DNA of 64,000 nt from Saccharomonospora viridis DSM 43017 (GTDB lineage Bacteria > Actinomycetota > Actinomycetes > Mycobacteriales > Pseudonocardiaceae), in NCBI RefSeq assembly GCF_000023865.1, contig NC_013159.1, positions 770,001-834,000 on the forward strand. The letters run 5' to 3'. A program made the translations under genes and the position numbers. The notes below the pieces were generated by a model, which saw only the letters and a program-made list of their open reading frames with translations, was not told where the DNA came from and ran no database searches. Positions 49,434-63,321 of this stretch are shown one piece after another; the first letter of the stretch is position 1, and every line of letters starts with the position of its first letter.

Positions 49434-49627
49434 CGTCCGAGCAGCTTCTCGGTCCCGATCCCATCGCTGGGCATGCGGTGCTGAGTCGGGGCGACTCGTG
49501 AGGCCGAGAAGGACGGTCGGTGGTCTCGTCCGTTTCCCGTCCATCACGTGTTTCGCCCGGTGGTCGAGCGGGTACCGACAGTGCGTGCTGTCGAGAATGC
49601 CGATCATGGCGGGCGACCGCCGGTGCC

Positions 49628-51916
49628 GTGGAGTCGGGTGAGGGCGTCGTCGGCCCGGTCCGGCGTGTCGAGATCCGGGTCGAGGGCGTGGTGCAGGGTG
49701 TCGGGTTCCGCCCGTTCGTGTACGGCTTGGCGGAGCGGTTCGGACTGAACGGGCGGGTCGGCAACGACACCGGTGGTGTGGTCATCGACGTCGAGGGCCC
49801 GCGCGAGGCGGTGGCCGGATTCCTGAAGTCCCTGGAGGTCGACGCCCCCGTCCTGGCGGACATCGAACGCGTCACCGTCGTGACGCGGCCACCGAGGGGG
49901 AGCATCGGGTTCCGCATCGTCGACAGTGACCACGGTGGTCCGCGACGGACACCGGTCCCCGCCGACTCCGCCACGTGCAAGAAGTGCCTGGCGGAGCTGT
50001 TCGACCCCTGTGACCGCCGGTACCGGTACCCGTTCCTCAACTGCACCGACTGCGGTCCCCGGTTCACCATCGTGCGGGACGTGCCCTACGACCGCGGGAA
50101 CACGACCATGGCCGAGTTCCCGATGTGTCCGGCGTGTGCCCGGGAGTACCACGACCCCACCGACCGTCGCTTCCACGCCCAACCCGTGTGCTGTCCCGAC
50201 TGCGGGCCCCGACTGCGCATCGTGGACGCCCACGGCAGACCGTTGGGTGACGACCCCGTGGGGCGGGCCGTGGAGCTCCTGCGTGCGGGGATGGTCGTCG
50301 CCGTCAAGGGGCTCGGTGGTTATCACGTGGCCGTCGACGCCACCAATCCCCATGCGGTCGAGACCTTGCGAGCCCGCAAACGGCGCGCGGACAAACCGTT
50401 CGCCGTCATGGTGGCCACGGTGGACGAGGCCCGGAGACTGTGCGTCGTGGACGAGGCCGCCGAGCGGGCCTTGACGGATCGGCGCCGTCCCATCGTGTTG
50501 CTCGACCGCCGGGGGAAGGAGCTCGCCGAGGCCGTCGCCCCCGGCAATCGACAGCTGGGCGTGTTCCTGCCCTACACCCCGTTGCACCACCTGTTGTCGG
50601 TCGAGTTCGGCGCACCGATGGTGCTCACCAGCGGTAACGCCTCCGACGAGCCCATCGCGTTCACCGACGCCGACGCACTGTCGCGGTTGTCCGGCATCGC
50701 CGACGCGTTCCTCGTCCACGATCGCCCCATCCACGCGTGGGCGGACGATTCCGTGGTGCGTCCGTGGCGGGACACGGTGGTGCCGGTGCGTCGTTCCCGG
50801 GGGTACACGCCCGAACCCATCCGGTGCGCCTGGGAGTTCCCCCGTCCGGTCCTGGCGGTCGGCGCGGAACTGAAGAACACGGTGTGTCTGGCGTCCGGAT
50901 GTAGGGCGGTGCTGTCCCAGCACATCGGCGATCTCCGCAACCTCGAGACGTTCCGGGCGTTCACCGACGCGATCGGACACCTGTCGCGGCTGTCCGACAT
51001 CGTTCCGGCCGTGGTGGCCCACGACCTGCACCCCGATTACGTCTCCACCAACTATGCCCTCGACTCGACCGGGGTGGACCTGGTCGGGGTGCAGCACCAC
51101 CATGCCCACGTGGCCGCGTGCCTCGCCGAGAACGGGGTGGCCGGGCCGGCCATCGGGGTCGCGTTCGACGGCACCGGCTACGGATCCGACGGAACGGTGT
51201 GGGGTGGGGAGTTCCTGCTCGCGACGTTGTCCGGATTCCAGCGGGTCGGTCATCTCGAAGTGGTGCCGATGCCGGGCGGTGAGGCGGCGGTACGGCAACC
51301 GTGGCGTATGGCGGCCGCGTATCTGCGCGACGATCCGGACGCGTCCTCTCTCGCCGTGGCGCGACGGCAGGGGCGGCGTTGGGAATGGCTGCGACGCCTG
51401 GTCGACTCCGGGTTGGGCACACCTGTCACGTCGAGCGTGGGAAGGCTGTTCGACGCGGTCGCCGCGATCCTCGACATCCGGGACACCGTCACCTACGAGG
51501 GGCAGGCCGCGATCGAGTTGGAACAACGCGCCGACCCAGGGTGCGTGGACGGCTATCCCGTGGGGGTCTTCGAGGACGCGGGCACGTTCGTCGTGGACGG
51601 TCCCGGCCTGGTGCGCGCCGTCGTCGACGACCATCGGTGCGGTGTCGACGTCGCGCTGGTGTCCGCGCGGTTCCACAACGGCCTCGCCGCGGCGGTGCAC
51701 CGGACCTGCCTGAGCATCGCCGAACGCACGGACGTGTGGACGGTGGCGTTGTCCGGAGGCGTGTTCGCCAACCGGCTCCTGCTCGAACGCACGGTGGAGG
51801 CACTGGAGGGGTCCGGGTTCACCGTGCTCACCCATTCCCGGGTCCCCTGCAACGACGGCGGGATCAGTTTCGGCCAGGCGGTGGTGGCGGCGGCCCGTGA
51901 CCGGTCCTCCGACTGA
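49628..51916 (+). CDS. hypF: carbamoyltransferase HypF
   Basis: 762 residues of normal HypF size. An acylphosphatase domain lies at the start (VEGVVQGVGFRPFVYGLAER). Two zinc-finger-like repeats follow: CKKCLAELFDPCDRR with CTDCGPRFTI, and CPACAREYHDPTDRRF with CCPDCGPRL. Then a YrdC-like domain (VKGLGGYHVAVDATNP) and a Kae1-like domain with HHHAHVAACLAENG. It makes the carbamoyl group that becomes cyanide ligands of the [NiFe] centre, delivering it to HypE. The start is uncertain: GTG 49628 is preferred, an in-frame alternative is 49520. The next gene begins 11 bases on. Confidence 0.94.
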   Translation: MESGEGVVGPVRRVEIRVEGVVQGVGFRPFVYGLAERFGLNGRVGNDTGGVVIDVEGPREAVAGFLKSLEVDAPVLADIERVTVVTRPPRGSIGFRIVDSDHGGPRRTPVPADSATCKKCLAELFDPCDRRYRYPFLNCTDCGPRFTIVRDVPYDRGNTTMAEFPMCPACAREYHDPTDRRFHAQPVCCPDCGPRLRIVDAHGRPLGDDPVGRAVELLRAGMVVAVKGLGGYHVAVDATNPHAVETLRARKRRADKPFAVMVATVDEARRLCVVDEAAERALTDRRRPIVLLDRRGKELAEAVAPGNRQLGVFLPYTPLHHLLSVEFGAPMVLTSGNASDEPIAFTDADALSRLSGIADAFLVHDRPIHAWADDSVVRPWRDTVVPVRRSRGYTPEPIRCAWEFPRPVLAVGAELKNTVCLASGCRAVLSQHIGDLRNLETFRAFTDAIGHLSRLSDIVPAVVAHDLHPDYVSTNYALDSTGVDLVGVQHHHAHVAACLAENGVAGPAIGVAFDGTGYGSDGTVWGGEFLLATLSGFQRVGHLEVVPMPGGEAAVRQPWRMAAAYLRDDPDASSLAVARRQGRRWEWLRRLVDSGLGTPVTSSVGRLFDAVAAILDIRDTVTYEGQAAIELEQRADPGCVDGYPVGVFEDAGTFVVDGPGLVRAVVDDHRCGVDVALVSARFHNGLAAAVHRTCLSIAERTDVWTVALSGGVFANRLLLERTVEALEGSGFTVLTHSRVPCNDGGISFGQAVVAAARDRSSD

Positions 51917-51927
51917 GGACGGTCGTC

Positions 51928-52935
51928 GTGGCCCTGACCGTGCTGTTCGCGGTACTCGCCGCTTTCTGCAACGCGCTCGGTTCGGTGCTGCAACGGAAGG
52001 GGACCCGAAGCCAACCCTTCGAGGAGGCGATGTCGGTCCGCTTGTTGTGGAGGTTGGTGCACCAGCTGCCGTGGTTGGGCGGCATCGTCTTCATGCTCGG
52101 CGGTTTCGGTCTCCAGGTGGCGGCGCTGTCCACGGGACCCATCTCGCTCGTGCAACCGGTGTTGGTGGCCGAGATGGGGCTCACGCTCGTGTTGTCGGCC
52201 ATGCTGCTCGGTTCCAGCATGCACACTCGCGAGTGGACGGCCGTGTTCGGCATGAACACGGGGATCGCGTTGTTGTTGGTGGCCCTGCGTCCGACCGGGG
52301 GCGACACCCGCGGAGTGACCGGGCCGACGTGGGCACTGGGGTGCCTCGTGACCCTGGCGGTCATCGTCGGGACCGTGGTCCTGGCACACCGGTACCGCTA
52401 CGCTCACCGCGCCGCCTACCTGGGCATCGCGGCGGGCATGTTCTTCGGCTTCATCGCCGTACTCGTGTCCGGCGTCACGGGGGCCTTCGCGGGCGGACCG
52501 AAAGCCGTGTTGTCGGCCTGGCAGACCTACGCGCTCATCGTGGCGGGACCGACCGGCTTCTTCCTGCTCCAGGTGACGTTGCGCGCGGGCACTTTAGTCG
52601 CCTCCCAGCCCGGGCTGACGTTGGCCAACCCGTTGGTCGGCATCGGCTGGGGTGTCGCGGTGTTCGGCGAGGACGTGCGCGGTGGCGGTTGGATCGCCCT
52701 CGAGGTCCTGGGCTTTTCCCTCATCGCGGCGTGCACCCTCCTGCTGGCGCGGTCCGCGTCACTGCGCGGTTCCGCGGGCGCTTACGAGGAGACCGAGGGC
52801 AGGGCCGACGGAGAGGACGCGGGCAACACCGGGGAATCCGGGTTCTTGGAGGTGGCCGAGGACGCCGAGGACACGGCGGTCGAGTCCGGTGTCGACACCG
52901 ACGCGAGTTCGGACCGTAACCAGGAGAACCACTGA
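51928..52935 (+). CDS. DMT-superfamily (NIPA-like) membrane transporter
   Basis: 335 residues with about nine transmembrane helices (for example LTVLFAVLAAFCNALGSVL and LGIAAGMFFGFIAVLVSGVT) in the EamA/DMT arrangement, closest in pattern to NIPA-like magnesium transporter relatives. The acidic last 60 residues are hydrophilic. It follows hypF closely and may be co-transcribed; a metal role for the hydrogenase is possible but unproven. Its last 154 bases overlap hypB on the other strand. Confidence 0.7.
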   Translation: MALTVLFAVLAAFCNALGSVLQRKGTRSQPFEEAMSVRLLWRLVHQLPWLGGIVFMLGGFGLQVAALSTGPISLVQPVLVAEMGLTLVLSAMLLGSSMHTREWTAVFGMNTGIALLLVALRPTGGDTRGVTGPTWALGCLVTLAVIVGTVVLAHRYRYAHRAAYLGIAAGMFFGFIAVLVSGVTGAFAGGPKAVLSAWQTYALIVAGPTGFFLLQVTLRAGTLVASQPGLTLANPLVGIGWGVAVFGEDVRGGGWIALEVLGFSLIAACTLLLARSASLRGSAGAYEETEGRADGEDAGNTGESGFLEVAEDAEDTAVESGVDTDASSDRNQENH

Positions 52936-53603
52936 TCCAGCCCCTCACCCGAGACGCAACTCGTCACGAGCAGCTCCGCCGCGGGATTGACGCGCAGCAG
53001 GTGCCGGGCGAAGTGGTCGACGTCGAACGTCAGATGCGGTATCAGATCCGCCTTCGTCAGCACCACGAGGTCGGCGGCCCGGAACATGTGCGGATACTTG
53101 AGCGGTTTGTCCTCGCCCTCGGTGACCGACACCAGCACCACCCGACGTCGCTCGCCGAGGTCGAACAGGGCCGGGCACACGAGGTTGCCGACGTTCTCCA
53201 CCACCGCCACGGACCCGCGTGGCGGGTCGAGCTCCCGCAACGCCCGCGCCACCATGTCGGCGTCGAGATGGCAGCCCGATCCGGTGTTGACCTGCACGGT
53301 GCGGCAGTCGACCGCCCGGAGTCGATCGGCGTCGAGGGAACCGGCCTGGTCGCCTTCCACCACACCGATGAAGACGTCACCGGCGAGCGCGCGCACGGTG
53401 GTCTCCAGCAGCGTGGTCTTGCCCGAGCCGGGCGCGCTCATCAGGTTCACCGCGAACACCGCGTGCTCGGCCAGCCAGGCGCGGTTGTCCTCGGCGAGCC
53501 GGTCGTTCTTGGCGAGGACGTCCTGCTCGACCAGCACCGAGTCACCTTCGGTGCGCTGCTCTCGTACGGGCACCTGGCCGTCACATCCGCATGTTCCGCA
53601 CAT
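52782..53603 (-). CDS. hypB: hydrogenase nickel incorporation GTPase HypB
   Basis: 273 residues. A short CGTCGCDG motif at the start is a metal site without the His-rich stretch of some HypBs. The P-loop is SAPGSGKTTL (about 55), the dimer metal site includes GSGCHLDADM, then VVENVGNLVCPALFDLG, LTKADLIPHL and VTSCVSGEGLDQW. With HypA it delivers nickel. The last 40 residues are Ser/Pro-rich and lie entirely in the region overlapping the convergent transporter gene; homologues usually end near WLRSEL. The start overlaps hypA by 23 bases. Confidence 0.95.
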   Translation of the reverse strand: MCGTCGCDGQVPVREQRTEGDSVLVEQDVLAKNDRLAEDNRAWLAEHAVFAVNLMSAPGSGKTTLLETTVRALAGDVFIGVVEGDQAGSLDADRLRAVDCRTVQVNTGSGCHLDADMVARALRELDPPRGSVAVVENVGNLVCPALFDLGERRRVVLVSVTEGEDKPLKYPHMFRAADLVVLTKADLIPHLTFDVDHFARHLLRVNPAAELLVTSCVSGEGLDQWFSWLRSELASVSTPDSTAVSSASSATSKNPDSPVLPASSPSALPSVSS

Positions 53604-53934
53604 CGCGTACCACCTCCACGTCACGAATCCGTAGTTGTTGTCCAGACGTCACTTCCACGTCCGTCGAGCCGCACGCGCACACGTCGAGGAACGACGTCAG
53701 CCGCACGTCGGCCCCGCAGCTGCCGCAGCGTCCTTCGCCGGGTACGTGTTCGATCACCAATTCGGCGCCGTCCACCGGGGTGCCGCGGGTCACCGCGTCG
53801 AAACAGAACCGCACCGCGTCGGCCTCGACCCCCGACAGCGCCCCGATCTCCAGCCGCACGGACAGCACGCGAGCGCCCGCGGTGTGCTCCACGACGGCGT
53901 CCACGACGCTCTGCGTGATCGACAGCTCGTGCAT
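53581..53934 (-). CDS. hypA: hydrogenase nickel chaperone HypA
   Basis: 117 residues. The N-terminal MHELSITQSVVDAV has the nickel-binding His2. The zinc site is CGSCGADVRLTSFLDVCACG (C-x2-C and C-x-C). Length is typical. It hands nickel to the large subunit precursor with HypB, whose gene overlaps its end. It starts three bases after hypE's stop. Confidence 0.95.
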   Translation of the reverse strand: MHELSITQSVVDAVVEHTAGARVLSVRLEIGALSGVEADAVRFCFDAVTRGTPVDGAELVIEHVPGEGRCGSCGADVRLTSFLDVCACGSTDVEVTSGQQLRIRDVEVVRDVRNMRM

Positions 53935-53936
53935 GG

Positions 53937-55004
53937 TCAGCAGATGCGGGGGAGCGGGTCACCGACGAGCAGATCGGCGATCCGGGTGCCGCCGAACGCG
54001 GTGTTGAGCAGTACCGTGCCCGCCGGATCGGACCCGACCCGGCCGATCACGGTGGCCTTGGCGCCCACCGGATGTTCACGCAGCACGGACACGGCCTGTT
54101 CGGCGTGGGCTCCGTCGACGACGGCGACGAACCGGCCCTCGCAGGCGACGTAGAGCGGATCGATGCCCAGCAGCTCACACGCGCCGCGCACCTCGTCGCG
54201 CACCGGTACGGCCCCTTCGTCCACAACGACGGACACCTCGGCGGCACGCGCGATCTCGTTCAACACCGTGGCGACACCGCCGCGGGTGGCGTCGCGCATG
54301 GCCCGCACGCCCGGCACGGTGAGCAGCCGCGCGCACGGCTCGGCCAGACACGCGGTGTCGGACACCAGATCCGCCTCGATGTCGAGTTCACCGCGGGCGA
54401 GCATCACGGTGACGCCGTGGTCGCCCACGGGACCGGACACGATCACCGCGTCGCCGGGACGTGCGGTGTGGATACCCAAGGACCGGTCCGGGGGCAACAG
54501 TCCCACCCCGGTGGTGTTGATGTAGCAGCCGTCGCCGCTGCCCTTGCCGACGACCTTCGTGTCGCCCGCCACGAGTGACACGCCCGCCGCCTCGGCCGCC
54601 TCGCCCATGGAACGCACGATGCGGCGCAGGTCGTCGATCGGGAAACCCTCTTCCAGGATGAAACCGCACGACAGGTAGGCCGGTGTCGCACCCGCGACGG
54701 CGAGGTCGTTCACGGTGCCGTTGACGGCGAGGTCGCCGATGTTCCCGCCGGGGAAGAACAGTGGCGACACGACGAACGAGTCGGTGGTCATGGCCAGCCG
54801 GGTGTCGCCGAGCAGCAGTTCGGCGGAATCCCCGAGCGGTTCCAGCAGTGGATTGCGGAAGGACTCCACGAACACGGCCTCGACCAACGTCTGCGTCGCC
54901 TTGCCGCCGGCGCCGTGGGCGGAGGTGACGCGTTGTTCCCGCACCCTCGGTTTGCGGCGGCGCGCCCGCTCGATGCGCTCGAGAACGTCGTCCTCGGTCC
55001 TCAT
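53937..55004 (-). CDS. hypE: hydrogenase maturation protein HypE
   Basis: 355 residues, a PurM-like dehydratase. It begins with a basic segment, then SAHGAGGKATQTLVEAVF, LAMTTDSFVVSPLFFPGG and VAGDTKVVGKGSGDG (nucleotide binding). It ends with the PRIC motif whose terminal cysteine carries the thiocarbamate that becomes thiocyanate. ATG at 55004 overlaps the hypD stop by four bases; a longer open frame upstream is not this gene. Confidence 0.96.
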   Translation of the reverse strand: MRTEDDVLERIERARRRKPRVREQRVTSAHGAGGKATQTLVEAVFVESFRNPLLEPLGDSAELLLGDTRLAMTTDSFVVSPLFFPGGNIGDLAVNGTVNDLAVAGATPAYLSCGFILEEGFPIDDLRRIVRSMGEAAEAAGVSLVAGDTKVVGKGSGDGCYINTTGVGLLPPDRSLGIHTARPGDAVIVSGPVGDHGVTVMLARGELDIEADLVSDTACLAEPCARLLTVPGVRAMRDATRGGVATVLNEIARAAEVSVVVDEGAVPVRDEVRGACELLGIDPLYVACEGRFVAVVDGAHAEQAVSVLREHPVGAKATVIGRVGSDPAGTVLLNTAFGGTRIADLLVGDPLPRIC

Positions 55005-56143
55005 ACCGTGCTCGCCTCCTTGAGCCGCTGCCGGGTGAACCGGCCGAAGTTGTAGTAGGCGGCGCACGCGCCCTCGGGGGAGACCATGCAGGTGCCGATC
55101 GGTGTCTCCGGTGTGCACGCGGTGCCGAACACCTTGCACTCCCACGGCTTCAACACGCCTTTGAGCACCTCCCCGCATTGGCACGACTTCGGATCGGCCA
55201 CCCGTACCCCGGGCAGGGAGAACCGCCGTTCCGCGTCGAAGTGCGCGTACTCGTCGCGCAACCGCAGCGCCGAATGCGAGATGAACCCGAGTCCACGCCA
55301 TTCGAAGTACGGGCGCAGCTGCATCGTGCGGGCGATGGCGTCCAACGCCACCGGGTTGCCCTGCCACGGCACCACCCGTGCGTACTGGTTCTCCACCTCG
55401 CACCGGCCCTCGCGCAGCTGTCGCAGCAGCCAGTACACCGACTGGAGGATGTCCAGGGGTTCGAAACCCGCCACCACGAGCGGTTTGCCGTACTCGCGGG
55501 GCACGAACTCGTACGGTCGGCACCCGATCACCGTGGACACGTGCCCCGGGCCGAGGAAGCCGTCGAGCCGCAGGTCGGGGGAGTCGAGGATGGCCTTGAT
55601 GCCGGGGATGATCGTGACGTGGTTGCAGAACACCGAGAAGTTCTCGATGCCCTCCCGTTCGGCCCGCAGCAGGGTCATCGCCGTGGACGGGGCGGTGGTC
55701 TCGAACCCGATCGCCATGAACACCACGTGTTTGTCGGGGTTCTGTTTCGCGATGCGCAGCGAGTCCAGCGGCGAGTACACCATGCGGATGTCGGTGCCCT
55801 CGGCGTTGGAGTCGAAGAACGTGCCGTTCGAGCCGGGTACCCGCATCATGTCGCCGAACGACGTCATGATCACGTCCGGCAGGCTCGCGAGGTGGATGGC
55901 GTCGTCGACCCGGCCCATGGGGATGACGCACACCGGACAGCCCGGGCCGTGCACGAGTGAGACCTGCTCGGGGAGGTGGTCGGCGATCCCGTGCTTGTAG
56001 ATGGTGTGGGTGTGCCCGCCGCACACCTCCATGAACTTGTACTCCCTGCCGGGTTCGCAGAGTTCGGCGATCCGAGTCGCCAGTGTCCGTGCCGTGTCCG
56101 CGTCGCGGTACTCGTCGACAAACCGCATCGTCGCCGCCTTCAT
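55001..56143 (-). CDS. hypD: hydrogenase maturation protein HypD
   Basis: 380 residues. Conserved cysteine motifs are FMEVCGGHTHTI (near 41), HGPGCPVCVIP (near 69-72) and the [4Fe-4S] ligands in CQCGEVLKGVLKPWECKVFG with TPIGTCMVSPEGACAAYY. HypD with HypC assembles the Fe(CN)2CO unit. Normal length. It overlaps hypC by four bases and hypE by four. Confidence 0.97.
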   Translation of the reverse strand: MKAATMRFVDEYRDADTARTLATRIAELCEPGREYKFMEVCGGHTHTIYKHGIADHLPEQVSLVHGPGCPVCVIPMGRVDDAIHLASLPDVIMTSFGDMMRVPGSNGTFFDSNAEGTDIRMVYSPLDSLRIAKQNPDKHVVFMAIGFETTAPSTAMTLLRAEREGIENFSVFCNHVTIIPGIKAILDSPDLRLDGFLGPGHVSTVIGCRPYEFVPREYGKPLVVAGFEPLDILQSVYWLLRQLREGRCEVENQYARVVPWQGNPVALDAIARTMQLRPYFEWRGLGFISHSALRLRDEYAHFDAERRFSLPGVRVADPKSCQCGEVLKGVLKPWECKVFGTACTPETPIGTCMVSPEGACAAYYNFGRFTRQRLKEASTV

Positions 56144-56412
56144 TCGATCATCGATTGGCTCAGTGCGTCCATCTCGTCGGTGTAGGCGCTGCCCAACTCC
56201 TCGAGGTAGCGCAGTACCGCAGCCGCCTCTTCTTCGTCTATCTTGGACAAAGCGAATCCGACGTGGATCAAAACCCAGTCACCCGGTTCCGGGGGATCGT
56301 TCTCCAACAGGCCGATGTTGATCGCCCTGCGGACCCCACTGACATTCACCCGCGCAAGGTCCGGACGGTCGGGCAAAAGCTCGACCACTTCACCGGGAAT
56401 TCCAAGACACAT
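56140..56412 (-). CDS. hypC: hydrogenase assembly chaperone HypC
   Basis: 90 residues from ATG at 56412. It starts MCLGIPGEVVELLPDRPDLA; Cys2 is the iron-binding residue and binds the large subunit precursor. The C-terminal DWVLIHVGFALSKIDEEEA is typical of HypC/HupF. It overlaps the protease gene upstream by 23 bases and hypD by four. A second HypC-like gene lies at 58832-59065. Confidence 0.95.
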   Translation of the reverse strand: MCLGIPGEVVELLPDRPDLARVNVSGVRRAINIGLLENDPPEPGDWVLIHVGFALSKIDEEEAAAVLRYLEELGSAYTDEMDALSQSMIE

Positions 56413-56914
56413 CGGTGCCACCTCTTTCCAACATGTCGGAGACGAGGACACGCACCTGTCGGGCCGCCTCGTCCACAGCGGCGGACACCGGGTCGCTCAA
56501 CCCCATGCCCTCGGCCACGGTCAACGGCTCGCAGCCCACCACGAACACGCGTCCGGGCGTGCCGCCGAGCCTGCGCAGCAGCGCGAGCACGGCCGCGGGG
56601 TGCATGCCGTGACCGTCGAGCACCGGTCCCTCGTCGGTGTGCTCGTCCCCACCGACCTCCGCGGCCGGATCGGCGTCGAGCACGTACACCGTCCCCGGCT
56701 CGCCTCCCCGCTGGATGGTGTCGACGAAGATCGTGAACTCGTACCCGCCGTCCAGCAGTTCGTAGGCCAGGTGCATGCCCCGGATGCCGTAATCGGCCAC
56801 CACCGCCTCCGGTGGTAGGTCGCGAGTGGACAGTCGGGAGATCACCTCGACACCGAAACCGTCGTCGCTGTGGAACACGTTGCCGATCCCGGCGATGAGC
56901 ACTCGACTCGTCAC
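56390..56914 (-). CDS. hydrogenase maturation protease (HyaD/HybD family)
   Basis: 174 residues. It starts TSRVLIAGIGNVFHSDDGFG, where the GxGN and D-D-G-F-G motifs include nickel ligands; others are expected from FVDTIQRGG and DGHGMHPAAVL. It cleaves the C-terminal extension of the large subunit after nickel insertion; the large subunit here has such an extension of about 24 residues. GTG at 56914 overlaps the 417-residue gene by four bases. Confidence 0.93.
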   Translation of the reverse strand: MTSRVLIAGIGNVFHSDDGFGVEVISRLSTRDLPPEAVVADYGIRGMHLAYELLDGGYEFTIFVDTIQRGGEPGTVYVLDADPAAEVGGDEHTDEGPVLDGHGMHPAAVLALLRRLGGTPGRVFVVGCEPLTVAEGMGLSDPVSAAVDEAARQVRVLVSDMLERGGTDVSWNSR

Positions 56915-58164
56915 GGCCACACCTCCCCGGGGTACGGCTCGACCTCGGCGGTGGTGAAGTACCGGAATCGACCCTGGGCCAGTTGCCATTCCTCGGCCGG
57001 ATCGCCGTCCACCGTGACGGCGAGGAAACAGGTGCCGTCGACGTCCTCCAGCACGCTGCGCACCGTGGCGACCCGACCGTCGACGAACATGTCCTGGGCG
57101 TCCCCGTTGCCCCGGGGGCGCAGCACCACCTTGCTCCCGGTGCCGATCTCGGTCTGCCCGACCCGCACGACACGCACCCTGCCGTGCATGGCCTGCCGGG
57201 GTTGCTGGGGCAGGTCCTCGACCCGGTCGATGATGCGCCGGGCGCGTTCGTCGGTGGCGCGGGCCTCCCGTTTCTCCTCGTCGGTCAACGTCAGCGTGTG
57301 CAGGGTCAACATCTCGTCGATCTCGCACGCGTCGAAGAAGTCGCCCTGACTGCTCGGGTCCACCTTGGGGTGGTCGTAGAGGATGATCGGCGACGACAAC
57401 ATCGTGTCGGCGCTGCCGGGCGGACCGACCAGCACCGGCCAGGTGTGTTCGTTGACGCAGGCCCTCGCGTGCTCGGCCGCCCACTCGGGCGGGTCGAGCA
57501 GGGACAGGAACCGTCCGCCGGTGAGGGTGAGGACACTGTGGGCGGCGATGAGGGAATGCCGCACCGCCTCGTCACGGGTGTACCCGGAACAGTCGACGGA
57601 CGCCGTGTTGGCCACCGTCACGTGCAGGCGCACCAGGCCGGGGAGACGTTCGGCACGACACCGCAGTTCGGCCGTCAACGGCTGTTTGCGCCGCACCACT
57701 CGGCCGCCCTCCACGACCGTGGTCAGTTCGCCACCTCGGACGAGGACCGGGACCCACTGTTCGGACTCCAACAGCCGTCGCACGGGCAACACCACGTCAT
57801 GCTCCCGTTCGATCGCCTCGTCCCACGGCAGCAGCTCGTCCTCACCGACGATCAGCGCGTTCACCTCGCGGTAGCGTCCGGGGGCATCGGGCTGTTCGGC
57901 CTCCACGGTGCGCCGTTGCGCCTGGAGGAACCGCAGTCGTATGTGCAGTTCGGCGTCCGGTCCCACCTCGGCGAGGCATTCGGTGCGGCAGGACGAGTGT
58001 TCGCCGGTGCCCGTCGCCGCGTAGGACGGAGGCACCAGGACACCGAACTGCCAGCGGGCCTGGTTCTTCGTCGCCGAAGCGCGGTAGGGGTAGAGCACGT
58101 AGCCCTCGTAGAGCACGGCGTCCGCGACGGCCTTGACATGGTCGAGTGTTGTTCCGTCGGTCAT
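56911..58164 (-). CDS. unrecognised 417-residue protein in hydrogenase operon
   Basis: 417 residues, soluble, no signal. Its start (LDHVKAVADAVLYEGYVLYP) and the segment WQFGVLVPPSYAA are distinctive, with CRTECLAEVGPDAELHI following. The middle has LHVTVANTASVDCSGYTRDEAV and the C-terminal third looks like a separate small beta domain (RGNGDAQDMFVDGRVATVRS). I know no function. It overlaps its neighbours on both sides by four bases, so it belongs firmly to the maturation operon; similar proteins accompany group 1h hydrogenases as I recall. Confidence 0.8.
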   Translation of the reverse strand: MTDGTTLDHVKAVADAVLYEGYVLYPYRASATKNQARWQFGVLVPPSYAATGTGEHSSCRTECLAEVGPDAELHIRLRFLQAQRRTVEAEQPDAPGRYREVNALIVGEDELLPWDEAIEREHDVVLPVRRLLESEQWVPVLVRGGELTTVVEGGRVVRRKQPLTAELRCRAERLPGLVRLHVTVANTASVDCSGYTRDEAVRHSLIAAHSVLTLTGGRFLSLLDPPEWAAEHARACVNEHTWPVLVGPPGSADTMLSSPIILYDHPKVDPSSQGDFFDACEIDEMLTLHTLTLTDEEKREARATDERARRIIDRVEDLPQQPRQAMHGRVRVVRVGQTEIGTGSKVVLRPRGNGDAQDMFVDGRVATVRSVLEDVDGTCFLAVTVDGDPAEEWQLAQGRFRYFTTAEVEPYPGEVWP

Positions 58165-58835
58165 CGCACACCCTCCACGGAGAGTTCGGCGAGCACGTGG
58201 TAGATCGTCGTCTGGGCCTCTTGGACCCGGTGCACCGACGCCGAGGGCACCGCGAACAGGAAGTCGATCGAGTCCAGTTCGGCCATCCGGCCCCCGTCGC
58301 CGCCGGTGATGCCCACGGTGAGCATCCCGATGCGTTTGGCCTCGTCGAACGCCGCCAGCAGGTTGGTCGAGTTCCCGCTGGTGGACAGGCCGACCGCGAT
58401 GTCACTTTCCCGGCCGAGCGCCGCGAGTTGCCGGGAGAACACCAGGTCGAAGCCCACGTCGTTGCTCAACGCCGTCACCACCGCGGCATCGGCCGTGAGC
58501 GCGAACGCGGGTAGCGGCGGCGACCCCGGGGGCGGGTCGAGGAACTGAGTGGCCAGATCGGCGGCGTCGGTGGAACTCCCACCGTTGCCGAAGGCGAACA
58601 ACCTGCCGCCCCGGGCGAACCGTTCGGCCATGGCGGTGCCGCAGGCGGCGAGCAGGTGTCGTTGTTCGCGGTGCACGTGCCGCCGTAATTCCATGATCTC
58701 GCGCGCTTTGTCCGTCGTGGACCGGCGAACCTCGGCGAGCACGGCGTCGACCGAGCGCCTCGACTCCGCGCTCGGCTCACCGGGGGAGTCGTCGAATCGG
58801 AGGAACGGGTACAACGAGCTCATCGCGTCGGTCAT
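58161..58835 (-). CDS. SIS-domain protein, phosphoheptose-isomerase-like (first)
   Basis: 224 residues from ATG at 58835. A SIS domain of GmhA type: LFAFGNGGSSTDAADLATQFL (about 90-110), then ALTADAAVVTALSNDVGFD and VGLSTSGNSTNLLAAFDEAK. The last motif binds phosphosugars in this fold. No heptose pathway genes are near. It sits inside the hydrogenase operon with four-base overlaps at both ends and has a paralogue two genes upstream. Confidence 0.88.
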   Translation of the reverse strand: MTDAMSSLYPFLRFDDSPGEPSAESRRSVDAVLAEVRRSTTDKAREIMELRRHVHREQRHLLAACGTAMAERFARGGRLFAFGNGGSSTDAADLATQFLDPPPGSPPLPAFALTADAAVVTALSNDVGFDLVFSRQLAALGRESDIAVGLSTSGNSTNLLAAFDEAKRIGMLTVGITGGDGGRMAELDSIDFLFAVPSASVHRVQEAQTTIYHVLAELSVEGVR

Positions 58836-59065
58836 CGCGGCACCCCGATCGCTTCCTTGGCGTGGACGAGCAGTTCCGCCCCCGGCCGCAGACACGCCGG
58901 GTCGACCAGGGCCACGCTGATCTCCTCGTGACCGGATCCGGTGTCCACCAGGGCCAGGTCATCCCCGAGCAGCCGCACCAGCCGGACGATGACGGCGGTG
59001 TCGGAGCAGGTCACGCACACGTCGTCGAGGCACTGGGGCGGGGAATCGGGTCGGGGACCGGTCAT
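58832..59065 (-). CDS. HypC/HupF-like protein (second copy)
   Basis: 77 residues from ATG at 59065. A HypC-like small barrel is suggested by CSDTAVIVRLVRLLGDDLAL and PACLRPGAELLVHAKEAIGV. It lacks the initial MC found in HypC; its cysteines are instead internal (CLDDVCVTC, about residues 12-20). It may chaperone the same large subunit or a different step. Overlaps both SIS genes by four bases. Confidence 0.7.
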   Translation of the reverse strand: MTGPRPDSPPQCLDDVCVTCSDTAVIVRLVRLLGDDLALVDTGSGHEEISVALVDPACLRPGAELLVHAKEAIGVPR

Positions 59066-59682
59066 GACACCGGCTCCGGCGTGAGCGCCCCCGGGTGTTC
59101 GAAGAACACGTGCACCAGTTCCCACAGGACGTGGTACATCGTCACGTGCACCTCCTTGATCAGACGCGGGTCGGTGGAGTCGGCGCGCAGCACGTGGTCG
59201 ACGGCGGGACTGGTGGCCACGGCGCCACCGTCGCCGCCCGTGAGGGCGACGGTGAGCATCCCGAGCTCGCGGGCCTGTTCGAAGCCGCGCAGCACGTTGG
59301 CGCAGTTGCCGTCCATCGACAGTCCGAGCGCGATGTCGTCGGCACCCGCCAGGTGCCGTAGCTGGTGGGCGAACACCTCGGCGAACCCCACCCGCGCGGC
59401 GATCCCCGTCATGGTGGCGACGTCGGAGGTGAGGGACAGGGCGGGCAGTGCACGTTTGCCCACGATCACCGGGTGGACGAATTCCACGGAGATGTGTGCG
59501 GCGTCGGTGGAACCGCCTCCGTTGCCGAACACGACGAGCGTGCCGCCCCGATGGAACCGCTCCGCCATCGCGTGGCAGGCGCGGGCCACCCGGTCCGCCT
59601 CGTCGAGCAGCGCTTCCAGCGGCTGGTGACGGCGGGCGAACGCGGCGTCGACGTGGTCGTCGAAAACATGACGGTCAAACAA
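59062..59682 (-). CDS. SIS-domain protein, phosphoheptose-isomerase-like (second)
   Basis: About 206 residues using TTG at 59682 (MFDRHVFDDHVDAAF); no clear Shine-Dalgarno is visible, so the start is uncertain and may lie upstream. The SIS motifs parallel the first copy: LVVFGNGGGSTDAAHISVEF, ALSLTSDVATMTGIAARVGF and LGLSMDGNCANVLRGFEQAR. In the last, the T-S-G of the phosphosugar site is M-D-G here. It is the first gene of the ten-gene leftward operon, divergent from the small-subunit gene. Confidence 0.82.
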   Translation of the reverse strand: MFDRHVFDDHVDAAFARRHQPLEALLDEADRVARACHAMAERFHRGGTLVVFGNGGGSTDAAHISVEFVHPVIVGKRALPALSLTSDVATMTGIAARVGFAEVFAHQLRHLAGADDIALGLSMDGNCANVLRGFEQARELGMLTVALTGGDGGAVATSPAVDHVLRADSTDPRLIKEVHVTMYHVLWELVHVFFEHPGALTPEPVS

Positions 59683-59855: not shown

Positions 59856-60971
59856 GTGTCCACTCCGGACGTGTACGAAGCTCTGCATGCGGCCCCCGGA
59901 GGCCACATGCTTGGCGGCATGAGCACACAGATCGGCGAGACCGCGATCGACGAGGTCCACATCCTGTGGACCTCCGAGGGAATGAGCTGTGACGGCGACA
60001 CCGTGTCGGTCACCGCCGCGTCACTGCCGAGCATCGAGGACGTGCTGTTGCAGGCCGTTCCGGGCATTCCCAAGGTCCACCTGCACAACAAGGTGCTCTC
60101 CTACGAAACCGGCGAAGACTTCCTCAAGCCGTTCTTCCAGGCCGCGAACGACGAACTCGACGCGCCGTTCATCTTCGTCGTCGAGGGATCCATCCCGAAC
60201 GAGAACGTCCACACCGACGGCGGGTACTGGAGCGCGATGGGCAACGACCCGGAGACGGGCCAGCCCAAGACGCTCAACCGCTGGATCGACGAACTGGCCC
60301 CGAAAGCGTGGGCCGTCGTGGCCATCGGGACCTGCGCCACCTACGGCGGGATTCACGCGATGGCGGGAAACCCCACCGGGTGCATGGGTCTCGTCGACTA
60401 CCTGGGTGAGGACTTCCGGTCGGCGGGCGGCCTTCCCGTCATCAACGTCCCGGGCTGCCCGGTACAACCGGACAACTTCATGGAGACGTTGCTGTGGGTG
60501 CTGCACCAGGCGGCCGGGCTCGCTCCGACCATCCCCCTCGACGAGCAGCTACGTCCCCAGTGGTTGTTCGGCAAGACCGTGCACGAGGGGTGCGACCGTG
60601 CGGCCTACTACGAACAGGCGGACTTCGCACACGACTACAACTCGCCGAAGTGCCAGGTGAAGATCGGCTGCTGGGGTCCGGTGGTGAACTGCAACGTCAC
60701 CAAACGCGGCTGGATGGACGGTATCGGCGGTTGCCCCAACGTCGGTGGCATCTGCATCGGCTGCACCATGCCCGGATTCCCGGACAAGTTCATGCCGTTC
60801 ATGGACGCACCACCGGGTGGTGCTCTGTCCTCGGCGATGTTGCGCGTGTACGGGCCGTTGGTCCGCACGCTGCGCGGCATCACCAACCGCAACGTCAACA
60901 CAGAACCCAAGTGGCGGCACCCCGGCGAGAAACTCACCACCGGTTACCAGCCGCGATACCCCCGAGCCTGA
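59856..60971 (+). CDS. hhyS: [NiFe]-hydrogenase small subunit, group 1h type
   Basis: 371 residues from GTG at 59856; ATG at 59907 or 59919 would shorten it. It carries three Fe-S clusters. The proximal-cluster motif is EGMSCDGDTVS (C45, D48), with Asp where most small subunits have Cys; the other ligands are in AIGTCATYGG and NVPGCPVQPDN. Distal and medial ligands are in HEGCDRAAYY, KIGCWGPVVNCN and GGICIGCTMPGFPD. No twin-arginine signal is present. These are features of group 1h (formerly group 5) enzymes, which oxidise trace H2 in air. Confidence 0.94.
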   Translation: MSTPDVYEALHAAPGGHMLGGMSTQIGETAIDEVHILWTSEGMSCDGDTVSVTAASLPSIEDVLLQAVPGIPKVHLHNKVLSYETGEDFLKPFFQAANDELDAPFIFVVEGSIPNENVHTDGGYWSAMGNDPETGQPKTLNRWIDELAPKAWAVVAIGTCATYGGIHAMAGNPTGCMGLVDYLGEDFRSAGGLPVINVPGCPVQPDNFMETLLWVLHQAAGLAPTIPLDEQLRPQWLFGKTVHEGCDRAAYYEQADFAHDYNSPKCQVKIGCWGPVVNCNVTKRGWMDGIGGCPNVGGICIGCTMPGFPDKFMPFMDAPPGGALSSAMLRVYGPLVRTLRGITNRNVNTEPKWRHPGEKLTTGYQPRYPRA

Positions 60972-60990: not shown

Positions 60991-62796
60991 ATGTCCCAGA
61001 CCCAGAGCAGCGCGGTGCAAGCTCAAGCGCAGCGAGAGCTGGTCGAAGTCAACTTCGACCCGATCACCCGCATCATCGGCAACCTCGGCATCTACACCAA
61101 AGTGGACTTCGCTAACAACGAGGTCGTCGAGTGTCGCAGCACCTCGTCGCTGTTCCGTGGCTACAGCGTGTTCATGAAGGGCAAGGACCCTCGTGACTCC
61201 CACTTCATCACCAGCCGCATCTGCGGTATCTGCGGTGACAACCACGCGGTGTGCTCGATCTACGCGCAGAACATGGCCTACGGCGTCAAACCGCCACCGC
61301 TGGCCGACATGATCATGAATCTCGGCGAGGCGGCCGAGTTCATGTTCGATCACACGATCTTCCAGGACAACATGGTCTTCGTCGACTTCTGCGAACGCAT
61401 GGTCGCCGAGACCAACCCCAGCCTGCTCAAACAGGCCGAGACGACCGAGGCCCCGCGCGGTGACCTCCACGGCTACCGCACCATCGCCGACATCATGCGC
61501 GCGTTCAACCCCTTCGAGGGGGAGGTCTACAAACGTGCCCTGGAGATCAGCCGGATCACCCGGGAGATGTGCTGCCTCATGGAGGGCAGGCACGTACACC
61601 CGTCCACGCTGTACCCCGGTGGGGTGGGCACCGTCGCGACCCCGCAGGTGTTCACCGACTACCTGTCGCGTCTGTTGCGCTGCCTGGACTTCATCAAACA
61701 GGCCGTGGCCATGAACGACGACGTGTTCGACTTCTTCTACGACGCCCTGCCCGGCTACGAGGAGGTCGGGCGCCGGCGCATCATGTTGGGCTGCTGGGGG
61801 TGCTTCCAGAACCCGTACACGGTGGACTATCGCTACGAGAACATGGCCAGCTGGGGACGCGACATGTTCGTCACCCCCGGCATCGTCGTGGACGGGGAGC
61901 TGTTGACCAACAACCTGGTCGACATCAACCTCGGCATGCGCATCCTGCTCGGCAGCTCCTACTACGACGACTGGGTGAACGAGCAGACGTTCGTGGAGCG
62001 TGATCCGCTCGGCAACCCGGTGGACCAGCGTCATCCGTGGAACCAGACGACGTTGCCCGCGCCGCAGGCCCGGGACCTGGAGGGCGGCAACTACAGCTGG
62101 GTCATGAGCCCGCGGTGGTTCGACCCGAACAGCCAGGAACACCTCGCCCTCGACACCGGCGGCGGCCCCTTGGCGCGGCTGTGGTCCACCGCGCTGAACG
62201 GTCTTGTCGACACGCCGTACGTCAAGGCCACCGGAGGCGCCGTGCGGATCGACCTGCCGGCCACCCCACAGAGCCGGGAGGTTCGGTTGGAATGGCGACC
62301 CCCACGCTACGCCAACACGCTCGAACGGAACCGGGCGCGCATGTACTTCGTCGCCTACGCGGCGGGCATGGCCCTGCACTTCGTCGAGGAGGCACTGGCC
62401 GAGGTGCGTTCGGGCAACACCAAGGTGTTCGAGAACTTCGACGTGCCGGACGAGGCCATCGGAGTCGGGTTCCACGAGGCCGTGCGGGGAGTGCTCTCGC
62501 ACCATCTGGTGATCCGGGACGGCAAGATCGCCAACTACCACCCGTACCCACCCACGCCGTGGAACGCCAGTCCCCGGGACGTCTACGGCACACCGGGGCC
62601 CTACGAGGACGCGGTCCAGGGCACGCCCATCTTCGAGGAGAACGGCAAGGACGACTTCAAGGGCATCGACATCATGCGCACGGTCCGCAGCTTCGACCCG
62701 TGCCTGCCGTGCGGTGTCCACATGTACCTCGGTGACGGCCAGGTGCTGAAGAAGATCGCCTCGCCGACGTTCGGCGCGGTCCACCCAGGGCAGTGA
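60991..62796 (+). CDS. hhyL: [NiFe]-hydrogenase large subunit, group 1h type
   Basis: 601 residues holding the Ni-Fe centre. L1 is RICGICGDNH (C78, C81) and L2 is DPCLPCGVH (C571, C574, H577). A 24-residue extension follows His577 (MYLGDGQVLKKIASPTFGAV and four more), which the maturation protease in the divergent operon should remove. ATG at 60991 has caggagcg upstream. It follows the small-subunit gene by 19 bases. Confidence 0.97.
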   Translation: MSQTQSSAVQAQAQRELVEVNFDPITRIIGNLGIYTKVDFANNEVVECRSTSSLFRGYSVFMKGKDPRDSHFITSRICGICGDNHAVCSIYAQNMAYGVKPPPLADMIMNLGEAAEFMFDHTIFQDNMVFVDFCERMVAETNPSLLKQAETTEAPRGDLHGYRTIADIMRAFNPFEGEVYKRALEISRITREMCCLMEGRHVHPSTLYPGGVGTVATPQVFTDYLSRLLRCLDFIKQAVAMNDDVFDFFYDALPGYEEVGRRRIMLGCWGCFQNPYTVDYRYENMASWGRDMFVTPGIVVDGELLTNNLVDINLGMRILLGSSYYDDWVNEQTFVERDPLGNPVDQRHPWNQTTLPAPQARDLEGGNYSWVMSPRWFDPNSQEHLALDTGGGPLARLWSTALNGLVDTPYVKATGGAVRIDLPATPQSREVRLEWRPPRYANTLERNRARMYFVAYAAGMALHFVEEALAEVRSGNTKVFENFDVPDEAIGVGFHEAVRGVLSHHLVIRDGKIANYHPYPPTPWNASPRDVYGTPGPYEDAVQGTPIFEENGKDDFKGIDIMRTVRSFDPCLPCGVHMYLGDGQVLKKIASPTFGAVHPGQ

Positions 62797-62802
62797 CCGG
62801 TG

Positions 62803-63321
62803 ATGACCACAGTGACCGAGACACCGAAGACGCCGGAAGCGGCCGGGCGTTGGGACGAGGACCGGATACGCGCAAAGCTCACCGAACTCGACGCCGTACT
62901 CGCCGAACTCATGGAGCGGGCGGATGCGGAGTCGTCGACGGCGTTCGAAGCCGTGCGGGCGCTCGTCGACGTCTACGGCGAGGCACTGGCCCGCATCCTC
63001 GACCGTGCCGACAGCGCGCTGATGGAAACGCTCGTCGCCGACGAGCTCGTCTCCCACCTGCTGTTGGTGCACGACCTGCACCCCGACGATCCGGCCACGC
63101 GCATCCGACGTGTCCTGGCTGAGCTCGCCCCCCACGTCGAGGCCGAGCTCGCAGAGTACGCCGACGGGGTGGCCACGGTGGTCGTCGACGGCGCGGCACG
63201 CACCGGGACCGTCCCCGTCGAGGACGCCGTGCGGGCCGTCGCCCCCGAGGTCGACGAGGTCAGGGTGGAGCGCCGGTCGACACCCGCGTTCGTCCCCCTC
63301 ACGGCGGTGCGTGCCCGATGA
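62803..63321 (+). CDS. NifU-like C-terminal domain protein
   Basis: About 172 residues; ATG at 62803 or the adjacent in-frame codon at 62800. Helical at first (RIRAKLTELDAVLAELMERA). The end resembles the NifU C-terminal scaffold fold (AELAPHVEAELAEYADGVAT and EDAVRAVAPEVDEVRVERRS), but the usual C-x2-C is absent. It may help build or dock the small subunit without binding a cluster itself. It directly follows the large-subunit gene. Confidence 0.6.
   Translation: MTTVTETPKTPEAAGRWDEDRIRAKLTELDAVLAELMERADAESSTAFEAVRALVDVYGEALARILDRADSALMETLVADELVSHLLLVHDLHPDDPATRIRRVLAELAPHVEAELAEYADGVATVVVDGAARTGTVPVEDAVRAVAPEVDEVRVERRSTPAFVPLTAVRAR

Follow-up and report, generated by a model that had tools for sequence, protein, structure and literature searches.

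The proteins considered here are best compared with the phosphoheptose isomerase GmhA, the maturation enzyme HypX and the HypC family. In GmhA, the zinc ligands H61, E65 and H183 are provided by one monomer and Q175 by its neighbour (PMC5387315); in the numbering of the Burkholderia pseudomallei enzyme, followed below, these are H64, E68, H183 and Q175 (PMC5705639). A model-based paper assigns the phosphate loop and the Gln to one monomer and the Glu to the other (PMC7705670), and GmhA is described as a half-site enzyme already (PMC5705639). HypX, a formyl-tetrahydrofolate decarbonylase, is the extra enzyme named for aerobic supply of the CO ligand of [NiFe]-hydrogenases (PMC12134894). A study of Streptomyces avermitilis states that some high-affinity H2 oxidisers lack hypX (PMC4767420), and the origin of the CO ligand without HypX was described, for anaerobes, as the most urgent unanswered question in the assembly of the [NiFe] cofactor (PMC12134894); O2-exposed organisms lacking HypX raise the same problem. 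Here, we analyse a window of 64,000 nucleotides (positions 770001-834000 of the single 4,308,349-base contig of Saccharomonospora viridis DSM 43017), in which two GmhA-like SIS proteins, named SIS2 and SIS1 in order of transcription, flank a small HypC-like gene at the head of a hydrogenase maturation (hyp) operon. Like HypX, they are additions to the hyp operons of H2 oxidisers exposed to O2, although the SIS proteins are unrelated to HypX. The linkage of SIS genes to hydrogenases is already in print as annotation: group 1h/5 loci of Acidobacteria have a gene labelled “putative phosphoheptose isomerase (gmhA)” (PMC5900883), and a “SIS domain” cluster is reported in the vicinity of [NiFe]-hydrogenases (PMC12727194). 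The available parts of these two papers give the gene no function and mention no pair, split site or HypC-like partner, and no published role for a hyp-operon SIS was found among the matches listed in a search that mostly did not extend to subscription journals.

The original prediction, made from the letters of the window, had described two SIS proteins around the HypC-like gene with four-base overlaps, and the coordinates and Pfam SIS_2 matches bear this out; ATGA overlaps are found at all three junctions among SIS2, the HypC-like gene, SIS1 and the following gene for a 417-aa protein. As it had also read, both proteins carry the FGNGG(S/G)STDA motif and differ in the phosphosugar loop: SIS1 has FGNGGSSTDA and TSGNS (STSGNS loop), SIS2 has FGNGGGSTDA and MDGNC (SMDGNC loop). 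The loop difference is real, but it is only half of a two-sided pattern, as SIS1 lacks metal ligands that SIS2 keeps. Nine positions of the SIS domain were scored across the loci with a profile seeded with 12 sequences of an alignment (A1). At these positions, window SIS2 reads DHESMDCKH, keeping H64, E68 and H183 with Q175 replaced by K, and window SIS1 reads DDQSTSSQH, keeping Q175 with H64 replaced by D and E68 by Q, so that neither protein holds all four zinc ligands.

The same division was found in 53 distinct SIS2/SIS1 pairs, many of them from related genomes and hence partly non-independent. In SIS2, H64, E68 and H183 are each kept in 52 of the 53, and an intact phosphate loop occurs in none (the loop being unalignable in a few). 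SIS1 keeps Q175 in all 53 and the loop in 52, and never has H64 or E68. Further losses affect residues for which a composite site would have no need, namely Q175 of SIS2 (30/53) and H183 of SIS1, which is Tyr in 8/53, mostly in mycobacterium-like loci. The sole exception, locus L173, is the second, degenerate copy in a genome (G358) that also carries a normal fused copy (L174); catalytic positions are altered in both its halves (DRA-THVQQ and ADDSVNSQH). Single-copy SIS proteins, by comparison, keep all nine positions (DHESTSSQH) in 80 of 80 loci described below; one further single copy, on a Methylocystis plasmid (L021), has Ala at S124. No split pattern is seen in 14 GmhA-type paralogs from elsewhere, taken as a control: E68, the loop, Q175 and H183 are present in all 14 and H64 in 12. 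Because the catalytic parts that each protein keeps belong to one side of the interface and the parts that it has lost to the other, the simplest reading is that SIS1 and SIS2 complement each other into one composite active site, for which the pair jointly provides GmhA's four zinc ligands and its phosphate loop. As GmhA is a half-site enzyme to begin with, a dimer in which one site works and the other is dead may be a natural end point, and the pair would be a clean natural case of duplicates sharing out one interface active site. The original prediction of a heterodimer with one active and one regulatory half is therefore retained only in its first part. A heteromer is supported by the fusion of SIS2 and SIS1 in one open reading frame (ORF) in 27 of the 53 pairs (Thermus thermophilus SG0.5JP17-16 has such a fused SIS2-SIS1); a split into active and regulatory halves is rejected because the residue loss is complementary.

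The protein encoded between the two was originally called a second HypC-like protein. It is indeed HypC-like, with a weak Pfam match (HupF_HypC, 18.6 bits against a cut-off of 28.5) and the same core as HypC, HybG and HupF in the alignment, but it belongs to a distinct subfamily marked by C-x-[TV]-C-[SG]-D and is not a second ordinary HypC. An N-terminal Met-Cys is essential in the HypC family; here, the motif replaces it. The window protein starts MTGPRPDSPPQC, with CVTCSD internal and no N-terminal Met-Cys. Matches of this CxxC type were found in 28 of 38 SIS loci beyond the 80 single-copy ones (labelled HypD loci), in none of the 77 of those 80 with a HypD row, in none of 26 HypX loci and in 9 of 86 loci having neither SIS nor HypX; four of these nine, with unlike motifs and low scores, are probably chance matches, and two come from genomes whose SIS sits on another contig. 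The HypC-like domain is fused to SIS in 13 distinct ORFs, ten of the form SIS2-HypC-like and three of the form SIS2-HypC-like-SIS1 (L172, L177 and the degenerate L173). As the triple fusions follow the order of the window genes, the three window genes are likely to act as one functional unit. In a separate locus (L146 7344-8015, genome G306), whose region has a group 2a-like large subunit, a stretch that reads as a heavily eroded SIS2 is fused to a CxTC HypC-like domain.

The distribution of these genes ties them to hydrogenase maturation. A scan of genome contigs gave at least 581 SIS relatives, and the best 80, called named loci (3.8 to 20.7 kb long), lie mostly in Pseudomonadota, with others in Nitrospira, Acidobacteriota, Planctomycetota and Myxococcota; no relative was found in the viral contigs searched. 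In 79 of the 80, hypD is the next gene after the single-copy SIS, and the 80th ends at a contig edge; the gap has a median of 3 bp, is 200 bp or less in 77 of 79 and reaches 634 bp at most. In the group 1h operon on pHG1 of Cupriavidus necator H16, the single SIS gene (H16_RS31885) has hypC on one side and hypD on the other. The suggestion that the fold has been reused in hydrogenase maturation thus gains support. A proposed linkage to group 1h was found too narrow, since among the large subunits of the named loci (group names of the reference sequences are assumed here) 22 are close to 1h and two weakly so, while 27 are nearest to 2a, five to 2b and one each to 1d and 3d; no large subunit was seen in 22 of the 80, many loci being short. 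The SIS pair recurs in related genomes and across Actinomycetota, so the arrangement is not due to chance; HypD was found in 189 of 396 Actinomycetota genomes, and a hydrogenase-type SIS was read in 44 of the 189. In a quick SIS tree without bootstrap, with row labels set by the scored residues, GmhA-type paralogs, single copies, SIS1 and SIS2 form four groups with support of 97 to 100: the hydrogenase SIS clade is separated from the GmhA-type paralogs with an SH-aLRT value of 100, and SIS1, SIS2 and the single form have 97, 99 and 99, respectively. The tree used matches of at least 140 aa that fell into one of the residue classes, and thinning at 75% identity reduced 230 rows to 87. As the three hydrogenase forms are separate clades, a recent local duplication was rejected.

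Taken together, these data suggest a single maturation complex of SIS2, SIS1 and the HypC-like protein of the CxTCSD type, which we consider very probable from the division of residues, the fusions and the linkage, all of them seen in the sequences. By analogy with GmhA structures, a single active site would lie across the SIS2-SIS1 interface, where SIS2 would supply the His, Glu and His ligands to a metal ion and SIS1 both the Gln ligand and the loop that binds phosphate; in the mirror-image site, both sides would be dead. The conservation of this composite site argues for catalysis, and the HypC-like fusion and the hypD linkage argue for action on the HypC/HypD scaffold, the place of Fe(CN)2CO synthesis, on which the HypC-like subunit might dock the enzyme. 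The substrate may be a phosphorylated sugar-like metabolite processed by enediolate chemistry, and the product, in hyp operons without HypX, could be the CO ligand or an aldehyde precursor delivered at the scaffold; one chemically sensible, if speculative, route is that a ketose phosphate is isomerised to an aldehyde, which the scaffold iron decarbonylates. The best overall explanation, a composite SIS/HypC-like maturation enzyme on the HypC/HypD scaffold with CO supply as its likeliest role, is given a probability of about 0.4. Taken by itself, the CO-supply role is tentative, and the broader proposal of a second, HypX-independent CO route in atmospheric-H2 and other O2-exposed oxidisers, from a phosphosugar to a carbonyl donor on HypC/HypD, must be regarded as doubtful. 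In many operons, a SIS gene with a complete predicted active site is found directly before hypD, which opens the question of the origin of CO to direct tests in a laboratory strain, and a missing maturase could account for failures in heterologous production of Huc/Hhy-type hydrogenases.

The distribution of HypX was considered in this context. Among 227 HypD loci, a non-random sample, 115 have SIS, 26 have HypX and 86 neither, and the two never occur together in one operon (SIS in 0/26 HypX loci). HypX is absent from all 80 named SIS loci and present in 10 of 75 SIS-free Proteobacterial HypD loci (p=0.0005); when 29 genomes of the named loci were searched whole, two had HypX. Two plasmids each bear one SIS operon and one HypX operon. 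With the Cupriavidus necator query, HypX was found in 13 of the 396 Actinomycetota genomes, including 10 of the 11 HypD-positive members of one family (f18); the HypD regions of nine of these ten encode a large subunit of the group 1h-like type. Elsewhere, such subunits go with SIS operons, so the choice between the two is not set by the client enzyme. Nitrospira moscoviensis has SIS and gave no HypX match; a group 2a hydrogenase was detected in cells of this organism reported to take up atmospheric H2 (PMC9381531). HypX homologues were also seen without annotated hyp genes nearby, on plasmids of Acaryochloris (L285) and Mycetohabitans (L289), and in two genomes without a HypD match (G056 and G271); these may have another role.

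Several observations weigh against a CO-supplying role. To our knowledge, no isomerase releases CO. In the HypD tree, for which rows above 85% identity were thinned (227 to 143), all retained SIS operons group together in a clade of 76 rows (55 SIS, 21 neither; support 99) from which HypX is absent; SIS versus HypX is one change on this tree and not repeated swaps, and the exclusion, real in the loci examined, thus amounts to about one event. Draws made without selection show no significant exclusion. In Actinomycetota, the counts of 44 with SIS, 11 with HypX and one with both (G141, on different contigs) among 189 HypD-positive genomes are not significant (p=0.46). The presence of SIS was one ground for choosing the 60 Actinomycetota regions, which are a non-random set, and tests using them are only descriptive. 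Proteobacterial loci, drawn from 82 listed HypD places minus the second place of one genome (G487) and a weak match in another (G570), gave four SIS, ten HypX and none with both (n=79; p=1). In one sample of 80 Actinomycetota genomes, 13 of the 28 HypD-positive ones bearing COX1 have neither the SIS pair nor HypX (one of the 13, G237, shows a partial SIS match where its contig ends), so there are other routes, and 8 of the 21 pair-bearing genomes lack COX1, although full-length cytochrome bd oxidase was found in 8 of 11 searched SIS-positive members of another family (f33). COX1 is found in 13 of these 21 and in 15 of the 59 other genomes (p=0.004), a weak test uncorrected for kinship; in the Proteobacterial set, it is near-universal (76 of 79 HypD-positive genomes) and thus offers no contrast as an aerobe marker. 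The single-copy layout is also not reproduced in the window, where SIS1 does not adjoin hypD, which is the fourth gene after it.

Other roles can be proposed for the same composite complex. It might serve iron loading, by means of the metal site and the CxxC, or protection of the HypCD scaffold against O2, the latter a role proposed for HupF-HupK (PMC12134894) and also for HoxL-HoxV. The iron source of HypCD is termed unresolved in the literature (PMC10847431), the HupF-HupK proposal likewise pairs a member of the HypC family with another protein (PMC12134894), and the CxTC[SG]D motif is conserved in the HypC-like partner; however, such roles do not require a phosphate loop, which SIS1 keeps in 52/53 pairs and the single-copy proteins in 80/80 loci, and we consider this reading rather improbable. 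Since SIS enzymes in general bind sugar phosphates (PMC5705639) and the huc operon reacts to carbon starvation (PMC13098282), it was also considered that the complex senses a sugar phosphate and couples hydrogenase maturation to carbon status with no need for turnover. All four metal ligands are kept where a catalytic site needs them, though a sensor could dispense with them, and a sensor is unlikely. A non-catalytic protein-binding adaptor would have a precedent of the same fold in the DnaA-binding GmhA relative DiaA, whose structures are among the PDB matches, and fusion to a HypC-like domain also suggests binding; catalytic residues are nevertheless retained in complementary fashion, and in a sequence search the closest structures of both proteins are those of GmhA (best E 6.8e-37 versus 1.3e-19 for DiaA with SIS1, and 2.2e-26 versus 1.3e-18 with SIS2), which makes an adaptor less likely still.

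That the pair is a heptose-pathway enzyme merely located in a hydrogenase operon would agree with the E-values, by which gmhA is the top NCBIfam family (3.2e-38 and 4.4e-33), yet the scores of 131.2 and 114.5 bits stay below the curated cut-off of 209.45, whereas both proteins pass the cut-off of Pfam SIS_2. As originally noted, no heptose pathway was seen nearby: there was none among 10 further window ORFs checked against Pfam. A third SIS gene of the same genome (L292 5478-6074, C1:1160010) lies beside a gene with PfkB and cytidylyltransferase domains (HldE-type), and a gene for a UDP-glucose/GDP-mannose dehydrogenase is located some 3 kb from it; by these neighbours, this is a heptose-type locus. 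With a heptose-type copy elsewhere, the separate clade of the hydrogenase SIS proteins and hypD beside them in 79 of 80 loci, heptose synthesis was rejected for the window pair and is given next to no probability.

The layout of the locus is collected in Table 1. The minus-strand operon runs in the order SIS2, HypC-like, SIS1, 417-aa protein, protease, HypC, HypD, HypE, HypA and HypB, and the hydrogenase small subunit gene diverges from it. The large subunit has 66% identity to that of C. necator pHG1, which we take to be group 1h.

Table 1. Genes of the hydrogenase and maturation locus (window positions; E-values follow the family names)
Feature	Position	Strand	Start, length and assignment
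SIS2	59062..59682	-	TTG start, 206 aa; Pfam SIS_2 1.1e-15; metal-ligand half (predicted)
HypC-like	58832..59065	-	ATG start, 77 aa; Pfam HupF_HypC 0.0021, below curated cut-off
SIS1	58161..58835	-	ATG start, 224 aa; Pfam SIS_2 2.1e-18; phosphate-loop half (predicted)
417-aa protein, family unassigned	56911..58164	-	no Pfam/NCBIfam match
Hydrogenase maturation protease (HycI/HupD type)	56390..56929	-	Pfam HycI 1e-12; NCBIfam hydrog_prot 1.2e-31
Canonical HypC	56140..56451	-	Pfam HupF_HypC 8.7e-25
HypD	55001..56143	-	Pfam HypD 8.8e-155
HypE	53937..55004	-	named from ORF reading; start inferred from ATGA overlap with hypD
HypA	53581..53934	-	named from ORF reading
HypB	52782..53624	-	named from ORF reading
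HypF	49520..51916	+	named from ORF reading; tblastn matches to similar genes in most of the 80 named loci
Group 1h hydrogenase small subunit	59856..60971	+	NCBIfam NiFeSe small subunit 1.6e-54, below cut-off
Group 1h hydrogenase large subunit	60991..62796	+	NCBIfam 3.1e-72, below cut-off

The 417-aa protein has 39-44% identity to hypothetical proteins in four 1h operons (Cupriavidus, Methylocystis, Kitasatospora and Mycobacterium) and can be regarded, on these matches, as a putative conserved accessory of such operons. Between hypF and hypB, a 335-aa protein (51928-52935, plus strand) with repeated hydrophobic stretches gave no Pfam match at 1e-5 and, as read, looks like a DMT-type membrane transporter. 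Directly after the large subunit, a 173-aa protein (62800-63321, plus strand) gave no Pfam match at 0.01; in other 1h operons, a gene annotated as NifU-family occupies this position.

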